A stretch of DNA of 48,919 nucleotides from Candidatus Saccharimonadota bacterium. GTDB lineage: Bacteria > Patescibacteriota > Saccharimonadia > Saccharimonadales > Saccharimonadaceae. This document shows, piece by piece, positions 21,500 through 34,981 of the stretch. A model generated the notes under the pieces. It saw only the letters and a list, made by a program, of their open reading frames with translations. It had not been told where the DNA came from and searched no databases. A program made the position numbers and the translations under genes. Within the stretch, counting starts at the first letter, position 1, and each line of letters begins with the position of its first letter. Where the stretch lies: assembly GCA_017514665.1 (NCBI GenBank), contig JAFWIX010000006.1:1-48919 (forward strand), read 5' to 3'.

Positions 21500-24037
21500 T
21501 TATTGCGAGCTACAACCAGCAGTTCTACCGTTAGCTACACCGTCACCAAAGGATGAACTGAATTTATAAGTATATCCATCTATACATCGATCTATGTATG
21601 AAATTATATTACCAGCGCTAGACGTGCTCTTATAAACATACACATAATAATTCGCTTTGTAACTGCGGTAGGCGACGTCACCGCCACTCCCATCCTTGTT
21701 AGCTGGATATGCCCATCTCGTGAGCCCTCCTCCCCACTGCATAGTATAAGGTCCAGCTTGGCGTGGTGAGGAATCGGTATTTGCATCTGCCAGAGTGCTG
21801 TGTGCTTGGCCCTTTTTGATTTCGTAATTATTGTTGCCAAAGCTAATCGCAACGGCTTCACCATTAGAATCTCCCGTGAAATACACCGATCCTTTGTTTT
21901 GTTCTACATAGGCCCACGCTGCTGGTTGTCTATTTGGCTGCCCGTCACTGTTGGCCAAATTTTGTGAAGTTACGAGTACTGTTTTAGGGTTCAAGGCCTT
22001 GATAAATTCGTACGTATTAGAAGTCCTAATACCGTGATGCCCAGCTTTTAAGATATCTACCTTACCAATTGCGGAACCGTATTTGTCTTCCACGCCCCAT
22101 TCCCAATCGGCTGCCAAAAAGGCAGTTTTATTACTTGGCGTATGAGTAACTTTCATACCGATTGAATTTAAGTTTTCGCGATATTTATTATAATTGATAC
22201 GCCCAGTCGAAGAATCTCGGTCTATATTAAATAGCTTTATTTTGAAATTCCCAAAAGTAATTCCGTTAGTCTGAATCCCGGCCCGCTCCGTTTCATGATT
22301 ATAAAAATCAACTACGTTTGCGTTGGCTTTATTCATGGCAACAATCTTCTTATTGCAAAAATCCTTTGTAACAGTTGATGGAGTACTGCCGTCATCGCCA
22401 AAAGATTGAGTGGCTTCGCAGCCTCTCATATACACAGTGGTTTTATTATTAATAAAACCTTTTGACACCAAGTAATTTACGCTCCCCATATGATCGCTGT
22501 GTGCGTGTGTGAGTAACACATAATCTAAGCGTTTTATTCCCAGTGAATTCAAATAAGTTTCTATAGTATGTGCATTGGGATTACCAACTTGGCTTTCTGG
22601 CCTCCCGGTATCTACCAGCCAATACTTGCCTTGACTTTTAATCAAAATTGCATCACCAATTGATTCATTATCCGACCCAACGGTGTTTTTTAAGAAATGG
22701 ACACTATCGTCCCTGGTACCAACTTCGACATCATTAGCTACAGTAAAAATGCTATTATTGCTCACCGTGCTGTTATTGACCGTGGGGGTCTGCATGATTC
22801 CTGAAGCGTCTGCAGCCACATTAATTTTTAATTCTTCGCCCAACAAGACCTTAGCGCTTTTTGTGATTTGGCTACTATCGCTGACTCTTGTGATTTTTGC
22901 AACGTTACCATTTGCAAAAGTCAGAATCTTGTGCACGGGATTTGTAGTCGCGTTAAGATATAAGGTTGTAGTGTAATCGCCTAGCGGCATATCACTAGCT
23001 ATTTTAGTGGCAAAATGCACCACTATTGAGTGTCCAATCGGCGAACTCCCCTTAGTTTGGTAGGCAATTTTTCCACTTCCGTGGCCTTCGGGCAGCTTCC
23101 CATAACTAGCCCCGTCAACAGAAAATCCCCAAGTATTATTTGCAAAGTTTTCTATGGTCGTACCATCATTTACCATACTTATATGCGTACCACTTGTGCC
23201 AGTCAAATCTTGATTTGCTGTTGCTATACCTAAAGTATAACCAGTTAAATTATCTGTAATAGTTCTTACTGCAAAAGCCGCTTCTGCAGATTCGCCACGC
23301 CTCACGTAAACATCATAATTTTTTCCGTCGGTTGTTGATATTGTATAAGGATAAGTGAAGCTAACAGCTGAGACGTCTTCGGGTTGCTCGATTTTTGACA
23401 TGGATAACCCTGCTATCGTCAAAACCCCACCAAGTACCGCCATCCCTATGGCAGCTTTTCGCCAGCTAAATAACCTAGACCAGTTATTTTTCTTATCATT
23501 AAATCCTAAACTGCGATATTTATTGCGACCAAACATTAACTTAGCCTTATTTTTTCTCCAAGCAAAAGTGATGGCGCCAAGTATTATCACAAATATTACA
23601 ATTGCCCCAGTTGCAAAGAAGCCGACGCTCAGAGATTTTCCGTCAAACATGCCAGGATCCGTATTTTCGCCCGTATTCGGGGCAATCACACCGCTAGCAG
23701 ATGATTCATCTTCAGAGTTTGACTCGTCTGGTGTCTCCGGTTCAATATCTCTGTCTTCGTCTGGGCCTTCTTCGTCTGGGTCTACGTCAATTGGCTCTGG
23801 TGTATCGTCGTCTATTTCGGGCTCTATGTATTCTTCGGGGTCAGGGTCTAGCGTCGGTGTATCTTGTTCTGGTGTATCAGCTCCAGATTCCAGGACGTGT
23901 ACCGTGATAGTTGCAGTGCCATCAGCCGATGCATTAGTGCCAGCAAACACATTCGTAGAACGAATTCCTAAGAATGCAAAAGCCGCCAGTACGCTCAGCA
24001 GGATCCATTTTTTCGACAAATTAAAGGTAAGAGACAT
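21500..24037 (-). CDS. Two-pass surface protein with ComEC-type metallo-beta-lactamase domain
   Basis: 845 residues. Order: signal peptide (about 1-32); a strand TATITVHVLESGADTP (41-56); an Asp/Glu/Pro-rich stalk (57-115); an APNTG motif (119-123); TM1 (about 136-160) followed by a basic cytoplasmic loop; TM2 (about 194-212); the surface beta module (about 225-366, LTGYTLGIATANQ, NNTWGFSVDG, ASDMPLGDYTTTLYL). Next is a metallo-beta-lactamase domain (about 440-750) with HAHSDH at 511-516, LAADWEWG and KAGHHGIRTSN. It ends with an approximately 85-residue tail. The MBL domain is closest to that of ComEC/Rec2, so an exported phosphodiesterase or nuclease acting on DNA or nucleotides is plausible but unproven. 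The leader has TGC-TATAAT at 24084-24079 (minus). Confidence 0.8.
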   Translation of the reverse strand: MSLTFNLSKKWILLSVLAAFAFLGIRSTNVFAGTNASADGTATITVHVLESGADTPEQDTPTLDPDPEEYIEPEIDDDTPEPIDVDPDEEGPDEDRDIEPETPDESNSEDESSASGVIAPNTGENTDPGMFDGKSLSVGFFATGAIVIFVIILGAITFAWRKNKAKLMFGRNKYRSLGFNDKKNNWSRLFSWRKAAIGMAVLGGVLTIAGLSMSKIEQPEDVSAVSFTYPYTISTTDGKNYDVYVRRGESAEAAFAVRTITDNLTGYTLGIATANQDLTGTSGTHISMVNDGTTIENFANNTWGFSVDGASYGKLPEGHGSGKIAYQTKGSSPIGHSIVVHFATKIASDMPLGDYTTTLYLNATTNPVHKILTFANGNVAKITRVSDSSQITKSAKVLLGEELKINVAADASGIMQTPTVNNSTVSNNSIFTVANDVEVGTRDDSVHFLKNTVGSDNESIGDAILIKSQGKYWLVDTGRPESQVGNPNAHTIETYLNSLGIKRLDYVLLTHAHSDHMGSVNYLVSKGFINNKTTVYMRGCEATQSFGDDGSTPSTVTKDFCNKKIVAMNKANANVVDFYNHETERAGIQTNGITFGNFKIKLFNIDRDSSTGRINYNKYRENLNSIGMKVTHTPSNKTAFLAADWEWGVEDKYGSAIGKVDILKAGHHGIRTSNTYEFIKALNPKTVLVTSQNLANSDGQPNRQPAAWAYVEQNKGSVYFTGDSNGEAVAISFGNNNYEIKKGQAHSTLADANTDSSPRQAGPYTMQWGGGLTRWAYPANKDGSGGDVAYRSYKANYYVYVYKSTSSAGNIISYIDRCIDGYTYKFSSSFGDGVANGRTAGCSSQ

Positions 24038-30781: not shown

Positions 30782-30787
30782 TATAAT
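30782..30787 (+). promoter_or_regulatory. Rhodanese gene -10 box, leaderless geometry
   Basis: TGT-TATAAT, then AGACTT, then ATG 30794. Confidence 0.7.
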
Positions 30788-30793
30788 AGACTT

Positions 30794-31510
30794 ATGGTAA
30801 ATAAGTCAAAAATTCATTGTAATCAAAATTGTAATGTCACTTTTAAAATTCTCACTGGTATCGTTATCGCGTTAGTGGTGTTTGCGCTGGGGCTTGGTAT
30901 TGGCCAGGTATTCCGCCCAGCTATTAGCCCTCTTCCAGCTGCCGAAGCTGGCACTGGCGAACGTGGCGCCCAATTTGGTGTTGATGCTAATATCAACGAA
31001 GCCACTATCGACAATTATCTTGGTCGCAGCGACAGCGTTTATCGCGACATGCGCATGCTTGAAGACCCAGCCGATTACGCCGCGATTGGTGGCGACTCTT
31101 ATCTCAGCGGCTATGTAGAAGGTTTTGAAGTCGTCTCTTATCCGTATCTCGTTAATGTCACCGGCCTGCCCGAAGCGGTCGGCAAAAGTTACACCGGCCC
31201 CACTCTCTTCACTATCAATAAAGATGGTTCCTACACTGCAAATTACCAAGAATCCATGTCAATCCTCGAAGATTTATTTCCCAAAGATAAAAATATTTTC
31301 TTGATGTGTGGTGGTGCTGGTTACGCCGGCCAGACCAAAGATTTGCTCACCAAGCTCGGTTGGGATGCTAGCAAAATTTACAATGTCGGTGGTTACTGGT
31401 TCTATGAAGGCGAACATAACGTCACGGTCAAAAATGACGACGGCACTTATGCTTTCTGGAAGATTCCGTATCATTCCATTGATTTTGCAACTTTAACTTC
31501 AGTTAAATAA
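30794..31510 (+). CDS. Membrane-anchored extracytoplasmic rhodanese-like protein
   Basis: 238 residues. TM about 18-38, then an exported domain with the rhodanese pattern: VYRDMRMLEDPADYA (about 82-96), a GYVEGFEVVSYPYL region matching the GHIxGAxxip block, and the active-site loop MCGGAGYAGQ with Cys172. The loop is followed by LTKLGWDASKIYNVGGYWFYEG, a standard rhodanese end. The loop lacks the usual final Arg/Lys (CxxGxR), so sulfurtransferase activity is uncertain. It is first of a three-gene run of exported proteins (thioredoxin-like next, HNH nuclease third). Confidence 0.82.
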   Translation: MVNKSKIHCNQNCNVTFKILTGIVIALVVFALGLGIGQVFRPAISPLPAAEAGTGERGAQFGVDANINEATIDNYLGRSDSVYRDMRMLEDPADYAAIGGDSYLSGYVEGFEVVSYPYLVNVTGLPEAVGKSYTGPTLFTINKDGSYTANYQESMSILEDLFPKDKNIFLMCGGAGYAGQTKDLLTKLGWDASKIYNVGGYWFYEGEHNVTVKNDDGTYAFWKIPYHSIDFATLTSVK

Positions 31511-32011
31511 ATGCCCCAAAAAACCGCCAAACGCAAAATTACCAAACGCAAAATTCCCAAACTGCCGATTATTTTAGTGGCGGTATTGGCGTTAATCATA
31601 GCCGCTTTTTGCGTCTGGCAAATTTGCATACCGCATCCTATGCGCATGAGCGAAACCGTTTATGGTAGTAACGAACAAATCGACCTCACCGCCGACGAAT
31701 ATAATCAACTCACTCAAGACAAAGCTTCGTTCATAGTTTTCATTGATCAAACAAATTGCATCACCGCCAACAAACTTCGCGAAATGCTTGGCCATATTGC
31801 CGACGAGCATCAGATTCACATTTACCACATCATGTGGGCTGATATCAGCGACACCAATTTACGTGAAAAAGTTAAATATTATCCCTCAGTCGCCATCATC
31901 CAAAATGGCCAAGTCGTCGATGCGCTCGACGCCAACGCCGATGCTCACACTGCCTATTATAATTCCGAAGCCGACTTAAAAGACTGGCTTTCTCGTTACG
32001 TTGAACTTTAG
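31511..32011 (+). CDS. Membrane-anchored thioredoxin-fold protein with one active-site Cys
   Basis: 166 residues: basic N-terminus, TM about 18-39, then a thioredoxin-like exported domain (about 55-166). FIVFIDQTNCITANKL puts Cys83 at the active-site position, but the second Cys of CxxC is replaced by Ala86. The cis-proline is in YYPSVAII (Pro125), and the C-terminal NGQVVDAL strand fits. With a single Cys it may act in reduction or isomerisation of disulfides, or be a non-redox fold. The ATG follows the rhodanese stop with no gap, so they are one operon. Confidence 0.78.
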   Translation: MPQKTAKRKITKRKIPKLPIILVAVLALIIAAFCVWQICIPHPMRMSETVYGSNEQIDLTADEYNQLTQDKASFIVFIDQTNCITANKLREMLGHIADEHQIHIYHIMWADISDTNLREKVKYYPSVAIIQNGQVVDALDANADAHTAYYNSEADLKDWLSRYVEL

Positions 32012-32023
32012 TTTTTAACATGC

Positions 32024-32029
32024 TATTAT
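32024..32029 (+). promoter_or_regulatory. -10 box of the HNH nuclease gene (7-nt spacing)
   Basis: TGC-TATTAT, then 7 nt, then ATG 32037. This suggests the third gene of the exported cluster can be expressed on its own. Confidence 0.5.
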
Positions 32030-32036
32030 AAATTTA

Positions 32037-32789
32037 ATGGAAGGGAATCAGACTTTTGAAAAAGTGTCGAGGTCTCGGCGCCCTAAATTTCGCTGGCGTC
32101 GCATTTTAGCATTATTAGCTTTGCTGGGCGGCATAGTTTTTTGGTTAATCGAAAATCCTGCTAGTTATGAGCCAGAAACTGTCTATGAAGCGCCAAGCCA
32201 AACAGATTCTGGAGACGCTCCGCTCGCTACCGCCATTCTAGCTCAGCTCGAAGTCAAAGGTCGCGCGCCTAAGACCGGTTATGAGCGCACGCAGTTTTAC
32301 GATGGTTGGCCCAACATGGAAGACGGCTGTAGTCTCCGTCAAAAAATTCTTCGCCGTGATTTTGGGGATAGCGCCAGACTTGATGGTTGCAATGTCGTCA
32401 GCGGCGAATACACTGAGCCATATACCGGCGAGCACCTAATTTTTACTGCGCGTGAACAAATCAGCAAAGGTCTCCAAATTGATCACATTGTAGCCTTGAG
32501 CGACGCTTGGCAGAAAGGCGCCCAAAATCTCGAACAAGCCATTCGCTATCAAATTGCCACTGACCCACTCAATCTTGTAGCCGTCGATAGCTCTGCCAAC
32601 CAAAAGAAATCAGACGGCGATGCCGCCACTTGGCTTCCCAGCAACAAAGCTTTTCGTTGTGAATACGTTGCTCGTCAAGTTTCGGTTAAATACAAATACC
32701 ACCTTTGGGTCACCGAAGCTGAACGTGACGCTATCGACAAAGTGTTACAAAATTGCCCAAATCAACTCGCCGTCGGCGTCAGTCTTTAG
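32037..32789 (+). CDS. Membrane-anchored extracellular HNH nuclease (DUF1524/GmrSD C-terminal type)
   Basis: 250 residues. Basic N-terminus (RRPKFRWRR), TM about 23-38, linker, then an HNH-type nuclease domain. The catalytic motif is LQIDHIVALSDAWQKGA with Asp149-His150, followed by DPLNLVAVDSSANQKKSDGD with Asn179 and Asn188 and then W199. This is the pattern of secreted DUF1524 nucleases. Four cysteines (98, 118, 208, 240) in an exported domain could form disulfides. An outward-facing DNase would suit nucleotide scavenging in an organism without nucleotide synthesis; that role is inferred. Confidence 0.85.
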   Translation: MEGNQTFEKVSRSRRPKFRWRRILALLALLGGIVFWLIENPASYEPETVYEAPSQTDSGDAPLATAILAQLEVKGRAPKTGYERTQFYDGWPNMEDGCSLRQKILRRDFGDSARLDGCNVVSGEYTEPYTGEHLIFTAREQISKGLQIDHIVALSDAWQKGAQNLEQAIRYQIATDPLNLVAVDSSANQKKSDGDAATWLPSNKAFRCEYVARQVSVKYKYHLWVTEAERDAIDKVLQNCPNQLAVGVSL

Positions 32790-33700: not shown

Positions 33701-34981
33701 ATGGAACCCCTGAAAGAAAAACTTAAAACTTTACCCGACTCCCCCGGGGTTTATTTCCATAAAAACAAAACCGGTGAAATTATTTATGTTGGCAAAGCCG
33801 CCGTACTCAAAAATCGAGTGCGTCAATATTTTCATCATACTAAAAAGGACCCCAAGACTGCTGCTCTCGTCGCCGAAATTGCCGATACCGATTGGATTGT
33901 TGTCGATACCGAAATGGATGCACTATTTTTAGAATCTGAAATGATCAAACGCTACAAACCCAAATGGAACATTTTGCTCCGTGATGATAAGTCTGTAAGT
34001 TATGTGCGAATTGATCTCAAATCCCAAGTTCCTTATGTTTCCATCACGCGCATTCCGCAAGACGACAAGGCGCGCTATATCGGTCCCTTTTATGGCAAGA
34101 CTGCTATTCAAAAATCACTGAGAATCTTGAGACATATTTTCCCGTATTACGATAAGCCCTATACCGGCAAGAAGACCCTCAATACCGACCTTGGCCTCAC
34201 TCCGGGGATTGAAGTCGCCACCGATAAAGAGCAAGCCGCAAAAGAATACAAGCAAAACCTGCGCAAACTCATCCTCTACCTCGAAGGCGGTCGCCAAAAG
34301 CTTATAAAACAAATCGAAAAGGAAATGAACGTAGCTTCAAAGGCGCAAAATTACGAACTCGCCGCCAAACTCCGCAATCAGCTCCAATCGCTCCAAGCCT
34401 TGCGTAAGAAAATCGTCTTTAGTGACAAAGAATTCTTAGATATTTCTTCCGATCAAGCTCTCAAACAGTTACAGATGTTGTTAAAATCACAACACCCAGC
34501 GCTTACCAAGCCGCCAGTACGCATCGAAGGTTATGACGTTTCGCATCAATCTGGTACCAATGCCGTTGCCAGCATGGTGGTATTTACTAATGGCGTTGCC
34601 GACCGCTCTGAGTATCGTAAATTTAAAATTCGCCAAAAGAACTCTCAGGACGACCTCGCTAGTCTAGAAGAGACCATTACGCGTCGTCTTAAACATTCCG
34701 AGTGGCCTTATCCTGATCTCGTAATTCTTGATGGCGGCATCACCCAAGTCAATACCGTCAAAGACCAGCTTGCCGAGCACAATATCGCCGTCATCGGTCG
34801 CGACAAATCTGGTGACCATAGTCGTTCGGCCGCTGTTAATATTATTCTCGCTGATGGCACGCATCATCCACTCCCAAGCAGCTCGCACATCGCTCGCTTG
34901 ATTGCTCGCATCGACGAGGAAGCCCACCGTTTTGCTATCACTTACCATACTTTGTTGAAACGCAAAAATATGCTAAAATAA
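33701..34981 (+). CDS. uvrC: UvrC excinuclease subunit, minimal form
   Basis: Makes the 3' and 5' incisions in nucleotide excision repair. Residues 1-90 are the GIY-YIG nuclease (PGVYFH, IIYVGKAAVLKNRV with R39, catalytic Glu near 80). A UVR/UvrB-binding helix pair lies at about 203-232. The RNase H-like nuclease starts near 273 (IEGYDVSHQSG with Asp279; VILDGGITQVN with Asp344). It is 426 residues against about 600 usually: there is no C-terminal helix-hairpin-helix pair. The region that normally holds four Fe-S cysteines (about 145-175) has none, and I find no Cys in the whole protein. Confidence 0.93.
   Translation: MEPLKEKLKTLPDSPGVYFHKNKTGEIIYVGKAAVLKNRVRQYFHHTKKDPKTAALVAEIADTDWIVVDTEMDALFLESEMIKRYKPKWNILLRDDKSVSYVRIDLKSQVPYVSITRIPQDDKARYIGPFYGKTAIQKSLRILRHIFPYYDKPYTGKKTLNTDLGLTPGIEVATDKEQAAKEYKQNLRKLILYLEGGRQKLIKQIEKEMNVASKAQNYELAAKLRNQLQSLQALRKKIVFSDKEFLDISSDQALKQLQMLLKSQHPALTKPPVRIEGYDVSHQSGTNAVASMVVFTNGVADRSEYRKFKIRQKNSQDDLASLEETITRRLKHSEWPYPDLVILDGGITQVNTVKDQLAEHNIAVIGRDKSGDHSRSAAVNIILADGTHHPLPSSSHIARLIARIDEEAHRFAITYHTLLKRKNMLK
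34974..34979 (+). promoter_or_regulatory. -10 box of the 34987 gene (7-nt spacing)
   Basis: TGC-TAAAAT overlapping the uvrC stop, then 7 nt, then ATG 34987. Confidence 0.5.

Follow-up and report, generated by a model that had tools for sequence, protein, structure and literature searches.

Three consecutive genes for exported proteins in a Saccharibacterium raise the question of whether their products work together. An earlier note on this locus had suggested that they may form one surface machine that degrades DNA, in which genes 1 and 2 would fold or gate a possibly disulfide-bearing nuclease, gene 3. We analysed the locus within the window, that is, the whole stretch of 48,919 nucleotides, which is contig 2 of a 670-kb genome.

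Layout of the locus

Gene 1 (30794-31510, 238 aa) encodes an exported, membrane-anchored protein with a rhodanese fold, gene 2 (31511-32011, 166 aa) an exported, membrane-anchored protein with a thioredoxin fold, and gene 3 (32037-32789, 250 aa) an exported, predicted GmrSD_C/DUF1524 HNH nuclease. All three open reading frames (ORFs) lie on the forward strand. When each whole protein was scanned with 19-residue Kyte-Doolittle windows, those with a mean of at least 1.6 started at residues 12-27 in gene 1, 13-26 in gene 2 and 20-24 in gene 3. These positions are at the N-terminus only, and thus each protein has a single N-terminal membrane stretch, as had been described before; the AlphaFold model of gene 1 shows a helix at residues 13-39.

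The start of gene 2 directly abuts the stop of gene 1, so the two genes are probably carried on one transcript, and a gap of 25 bp separates genes 2 and 3. A perfect TATAAT, a -10-like element of a leaderless-type promoter (30782..30787, forward strand), ends 6 nt before the start codon of gene 1. TATTAT, a -10-like element with one mismatch (32024..32029, forward strand), ends 7 nt before gene 3 and is possibly a promoter of its own; about 6% of random positions carry a -10 element with one mismatch or better, and this element alone is weak evidence. Of the 43 ORFs in the window with at least 100 aa, 11 have a perfect TATAAT 4-10 nt upstream, located exactly 6 nt upstream in these, compared with 0.5% of random positions for the 4-10 nt range. 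The transcripts of the window Saccharibacterium therefore look leaderless or nearly so. Further along the contig, a UvrC of 426 aa (33701-34981) is short for this protein; its GIY-YIG, UVR and RNase H parts were found, and the C-terminal helix-hairpin-helix part that UvrC normally carries was not detected.

Genes 1 and 2 form a pair

We compared 88 gene 1 loci, consisting of the window, 7 genomes and the best 80 of 330 relatives, a few of them near-identical. A thioredoxin partner lies beside gene 1 in 80 of these loci, is fused to it in one ORF in 6 and is absent in 2. Genes 1 and 2 (30794-32011) are a true pair, and in this respect the idea of a linked unit with redox or sulfur folds stands for the first two genes of the trio. 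The partners in L078 and L137 were found by six-frame search. The partnerless loci are L052 and L115, and the L052 genome carries a partner on another contig.

Within the family, gene 1 is present in 8 of 121 genomes, belonging to two genera, and a profile search across the phylum found it in 5 of 379 genomes, from the same two genera. Gene 2 is present in the same 8 family genomes, and one further match is weak. The best 80 of the 330 gene 1 relatives obtained by genome scan are titled Saccharibacteria, Bacilli, Erysipelotrichaceae, 'Tenericutes' and a few others, and the titled sources among these 80 are animal gut or rumen. The nearest of them, 86% identical, is a Candidatus Saccharibacteria sequence from goat jejunum (L065). 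A phage or plasmid origin of gene 1 was rejected, as it had no tblastn match in phage and plasmid collections and no relative among viral contigs.

In Bacilli, the presence of the partner follows the active-site loop of the rhodanese. A profile match to gene 1 was found in 34 of 296 genomes of the class, sampled around one Bacilli member, and 30 loci were fetched, with 4 genomes of weak match left out. The strong matches have a Tyr loop, and a partner is in the locus in 13 of 13 (upstream in L167, fused in L162), whereas the weaker matches have an Arg loop, read by script in 16 proteins and by eye in L184, and a partner in 0 of 17. The two counts set one clade against others and are thus not independent events.

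The two members of the pair differ in conservation: gene 1 has a median pair identity of 64% and gene 2 one of 30%. Between the two members, distances are correlated (Mantel rho 0.41, 73 non-redundant pairs; 0 of 2000 permutations as high), a correlation that is not specific to interaction since shared descent alone can produce it. Apparently, genes 1 and 2 represent an undescribed pair of cell-surface sulfur/thiol proteins common to gut Saccharibacteria and gut Bacilli. An open-licence literature search, judged by titles and abstract starts, gave no description of this pair, and the terms thioredoxin and rhodanese do not occur in the main text of a paper on Saccharibacteria genetics (PMC10633639).

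Gene 1 has a rhodanese fold with Tyr in place of the loop Arg

The AlphaFold model of gene 1 (pLDDT 93.5) comprises a single membrane helix and one domain, about 190 residues in size. Its VIA-align list is almost entirely made up of rhodanese structures (best Z 10.0, rmsd 3.1, 113 aligned), and its best Foldseek E is only 0.011; the model thus predicts a rhodanese alpha/beta fold. The window gene 1 has no match to PF00581, and hence none at the gathering score, 1 of 8 relatives matches at E 0.14, and PDB sequence searches with gene 1, alone or as a profile, gave no credible match. The profile of a 68-row gene 1 alignment finds PF00581-positive Bacilli proteins, linking gene 1 to the PF00581 rhodaneses. 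This alignment (A3) keeps 68 of 81 possible rows, 6 fused proteins and 7 near-identical rows having been dropped; alignment A4 contains 81 chosen rows.

The active-site loop, Cys172-Gly-Gly-Ala-Gly-Tyr177, is encoded at 31307..31324 on the forward strand. The earlier note had read it as CGGAGYA without the last Arg, and indeed Tyr stands at the Arg place. Cys172, Gly173, Gly174, Gly176 and Tyr177 are invariant in the 68-row alignment. Across all 88 loci, the loop has the Cys that is catalytic in the rhodanese superfamily and follows the pattern CGG[AG]GY (CGGGGYA in 64, CGGGGYS in 17, CGGAGYA in 7), with Tyr where ordinary rhodaneses have Arg. Specifically, Arg at loop position 6 (CxxxxR), which marks thiosulfate-type rhodaneses, is replaced by Tyr in 88 of 88, and gene 1 lacks the two rhodanese domains of MPST. 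The missing Arg does not in itself mean an inactive site, since the loop of human MPST, CGSGVT, is also without Arg (PMC10135228).

Gene 2 is a thioredoxin-fold protein with a lone loop Cys

Gene 2 scores below the cut-off of PF00085 (E 0.0016, 18.8 bits, gathering score 23.5). Its alignment profile (A2) matches PDB thioredoxins with a best E of 4e-4, and the homologous C-terminal domain of the fusion L116 aligns to thioredoxins (best Z 13.4, rmsd 2.0, 100 aligned). Used alone against PDB sequences, gene 2 retrieves only cyclodipeptide synthases, and weakly (E 0.05), so the thioredoxin assignment rests on the profile and on the fold of the homologous fusion domain. The cis-proline of thioredoxins corresponds to Pro125 (codon 31883..31885, forward strand), which is invariant in A2 and Pro in 84 of 84 partners.

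As had been noticed earlier, the thioredoxin loop of gene 2 has a single Cys, reading CITA where thioredoxin has CGPC. This residue, Cys83 (codon 31757..31759, forward strand), occupies the nucleophile position and is kept in 84 of 84 partner proteins examined. The resolving position is Ser in 35, Thr in 21, Ala in 13, Cys in 5 and other residues in 10, and a CxxC active site is accordingly found in 5 of the 84 partners and not in window gene 2. Because the resolving Cys is absent, a normal thioredoxin cycle is impossible in most partners, including that of the window, and we infer that a lone-Cys gene 2 can carry a persulfide or mixed disulfide and cannot cycle like thioredoxin. Of the 84 partners, 24 have a length of about 260-320 aa, which leaves room for a second thioredoxin domain, and a strict pattern identifies a second motif, W-x-CxxC, in 22 of the 24.

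The pair can be read in other ways. Single-Cys thioredoxin folds (CxxS/CxxA) hold mixed disulfides, and genes 1 and 2 may act on surface proteins outside the cytoplasm, as a disulfide isomerase or a mixed-disulfide trap in which Cys83 attacks wrong disulfides and gene 1 resolves them with no involvement of sulfane sulfur. Gene 2 weakly resembles the model for the PedC/BrcD disulfide isomerase, at E 0.003 and well under the model cut-off; this resemblance and the thioredoxin and reductase-like neighbours in one group of genomes point the same way. However, an isomerase or trap gives no reason for a constant rhodanese-fold partner with an invariant persulfide-type loop, and we regard it as possible, if somewhat unlikely. 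Alternatively, both domains might be non-catalytic, the rhodanese and thioredoxin folds having been reused as a surface binding or sensing pair, and both proteins could be ligand-binding relics of enzymes. The loss of the loop Arg, the loss of the resolving Cys in most partners and, for sensing, an XRE-type regulator with conserved outer Cys just upstream in 17 loci would suit such a role. Against it, the nucleophile-position Cys of both proteins is invariant across two phyla even though gene 2 otherwise has a median identity of about 30%. The invariant cysteines disfavour relics, and a purely binding or sensing pair seems to us quite improbable.

Gene 3 is not a conserved part of the pair

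Gene 3 matches PF07510 above the gathering score of 23 (E 3.6e-16, 59.7 bits) and has the HNH residues, with D149, H150 and N188 present in 38 of 38 aligned rows. The earlier description of a DUF1524 nuclease with four Cys is thus accurate, and these residues (Cys 98, 118, 208 and 240) are likewise present in 38 of 38 rows. The rows comprise the window and 37 loci, four of them repeating a genome, and were chosen without a Cys-requiring motif filter. A Pfam scan of gene 3 found only PF07510 and HNH_4; the N-terminal DUF262 domain, by which GmrSD restriction enzymes are defined, is absent. A PDB sequence search with gene 3 gave no credible match, and a literature search for Saccharibacteria and secreted HNH endonucleases found no paper.

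Several observations favour the three-part machine that the earlier note had proposed: the three genes adjoin in the window, the four nuclease Cys are invariant, and in 8 loci from 7 other Saccharibacteria genomes a same-strand nuclease gene immediately precedes gene 1, with a gap of -23 to 77 bp. A local link between nuclease and pair therefore exists in part of Saccharibacteria, but neither order nor presence is conserved. The gene order differs within the genus, and in the closest relative, L065, a 421-aa ORF intervenes between gene 2 and a downstream nuclease. The nuclease occurs in 108 of 121 family genomes (54 of 61 genera), compared with 8 for gene 1, and at E<=0.001 it was detected in 0 of the 18 Bacillota genomes carrying the pair. 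Co-occurrence of the trio in relatives had been named beforehand as the test of the proposal, and it fails for the nuclease. In addition, gene 3 has its own, imperfect -10-like element. On distribution and gene order, we rejected the nuclease as a part of the module, and a joint DNA-degrading machine is highly improbable.

All four nuclease Cys are kept in 26 of 26 aligned genomes without a detected gene 1, indicating that their role, whatever it is, needs no pair. Gene 3 is probably an ordinary exported nuclease, its activity being predicted from sequence. This result cautions against reading a machine into neighbouring genes.

In 5 of 8 longer nuclease loci (L057-L064, from genomes in which the pair is absent or elsewhere), a neighbour of cluster c6 lies beside the nuclease. 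The translated c6 member, from L062, is an M1-type aminopeptidase, with the motif HELSHQWFGN read by eye. We rejected a ComEC-linked DNA-uptake enzyme as the identity of the nuclease because this usual neighbour, judged by the L062 member, is an aminopeptidase. An exported-looking protein of 845 aa is, however, encoded in the window at 21500-24037 on the reverse strand, about 8 kb from the nuclease; the metallo-beta-lactamase part at its C-terminus is similar to the C-terminal domain of ComEC/Rec2, with a score below cut-off.

Neighbouring genes and electron donors

In 6 loci, of which five are titled Saccharibacteria and one only 'bacterium', the pair follows a thioredoxin gene and a thioredoxin-reductase-like gene of the same strand; in L070 and L105 these are 7 bp from it. 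The thioredoxins of these two loci pass the NCBIfam cut-off, and the reductase-like proteins, at 334.5 and 337.1, fall short of theirs (343.45). This neighbourhood is confined to one related group of genomes. Among the pair genomes searched, none of 12 on the Saccharibacteria side has a DsbD/CcdA-type donor that passes the family cut-off (G104 and G476 gave weak matches below it), and 3 of 6 from Bacillota have one. In total, 25 genomes were searched and only 3, all Bacillota, exceeded the cut-off; DsbD/CcdA was therefore rejected as the electron source.

Immediately before the pair, 17 loci have a same-strand gene for an XRE-type regulator with one membrane stretch, recognised by eye (L080, L083, L091, L096, L098, L099, L109, L111, L113, L118, L119, L121, L123, L124, L131, L135 and L139). 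Four Cys are present in the outer part of the regulator at all 17 loci, and 16 of the 17 have a fifth; several of the rows are near-identical. The regulator is possibly a redox or sulfur sensor acting across the membrane.

Likely transfer between gut Bacilli and Saccharibacteria

The window gene 1 is 62 to 67% identical to its 7 same-family relatives and 58 to 68% identical to Bacillota rows. For YchF, a universal GTPase, identity within the genus reaches 84 to 86%, the matches in G001 and G062 being in two pieces, compared with 51 to 52% for the two full-length Bacillota matches and 49 to 64%, in pieces, for most others. The contrast between gene 1 and YchF is tempered by the faster divergence of exported proteins, as seen for the nuclease, whose identity within the genus is 56 to 67%. 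In a quick tree, some rows titled Saccharibacteria are nested within Bacilli branches; 32 of its 83 inner branches have support under 80, and binning errors may account for some of the nested rows. The patchy distribution and the tree nesting suggest gene transfer between gut Bacilli and Saccharibacteria, and the pair would thus mark likely gene exchange between phyla sharing the gut.

A possible persulfide/thiol relay

The folds, the membrane anchoring by sequence, the invariant single cysteines, the pairing and the fusion are observed; the persulfide chemistry, with its direction and substrate, and the nuclease activity are what we infer. We propose, giving the idea an even chance of being right, that genes 1 and 2 constitute a persulfide/thiol relay that is anchored in the membrane and works at the outer face of the cell. 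Gene 1 would take sulfane sulfur, or otherwise oxidise Cys172, outside the membrane, and the replacement of the loop Arg by Tyr points to a donor different from thiosulfate, which is an anion. Gene 2 would then take over the sulfur or a mixed disulfide from gene 1 through its single Cys83, and in Bacilli partners with a second, CxxC thioredoxin domain, that domain would complete the reduction. The nuclease next door would act independently as an ordinary exported DNase.

The relay is modelled on MPST, whose persulfide is passed to thioredoxin, likely its best acceptor (PMC10135228). It is supported by a pair that is adjacent or fused in 86 of 88 loci, with the gene 1 loop kept in 88 of 88 and the gene 2 Cys in 84 of 84 despite 30% identity, and by the partner counts of Tyr-loop (13/13) and Arg-loop (0/17) rhodaneses in Bacilli. 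The W-x-CxxC motif of the long partners and the thioredoxin and reductase-like genes upstream in 6 loci argue for it as well. The absence of a resolving Cys from most partners and of a DsbD/CcdA donor from the 12 Saccharibacteria-side genomes weakens it.

If the persulfide relay exists, Saccharibacteria and gut Bacilli with small genomes would carry out thiol/sulfur chemistry at their outer face, and this chemistry is directly testable; the naturally fused form, of about 360 aa, is a ready-made protein for structure determination and a transfer assay. A broader version, which we consider unlikely, is that the pair is a self-contained surface sulfane-sulfur relay, a protein family of its own that has repeatedly passed between Bacilli and Saccharibacteria of the gut. 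Were this true, epibionts, and perhaps their neighbours, would have in common a means of dealing with extracellular persulfides or hydrogen sulfide.

Comparison with known systems

Gene 3 resembles exported GmrSD_C/DUF1524 HNH nucleases, with PF07510 above cut-off and the HNH residues present, and unlike GmrSD restriction enzymes, as they are defined, it has no DUF262 part. The PF07510 family also has matches in the control genome of Corynebacterium glutamicum.

For the pair, TsoB (NF045694), a rhodanese/DsbD fusion-like selenoprotein, is similar, by its name, in joining a rhodanese to thiol-redox parts. It differs in being a selenoprotein with a DsbD-like part, whereas genes 1 and 2 each have a single membrane stretch. 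NF045694 did not match genes 1 and 2 in the NCBIfam search, and the name TsoB also occurs in PMC13188914.

The lipoprotein-like rhodaneses of Bacilli (L168-L184) have N-terminal export signals, judged by eye, as does gene 1, and can be aligned with it (IFLMCGSGTRAGY against IFLMCGGGGYAGM); PF00581 was found in the two that were tested. Unlike gene 1, they keep the loop Arg, as in CGSGTR, and none of the 17 fetched has a partner within about 1.5 kb. In the lipoprotein-like rhodanese L171 and similar Bacilli proteins (L172-L177), one or two Arg-loop domains precede FMN_bind-like repeats, a likeness that in L171, the protein examined for it, is weak and below cut-off. Such proteins possibly take part in extracellular flavin electron transfer.

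A close parallel to the proposed relay is MPST/TSTD1 with thioredoxin. According to PMC10135228, these systems, like the pair, have a rhodanese-fold Cys in a loop of small residues, and MPST shares with gene 1 a loop without Arg (CGSGVT and CGGAGY, respectively). MPST has two rhodanese domains, whereas gene 1 is single-domain, exported and membrane-anchored. In contrast to the acceptor of MPST/TSTD1, the thioredoxin partner described here is dedicated, gene-paired and mostly single-Cys.
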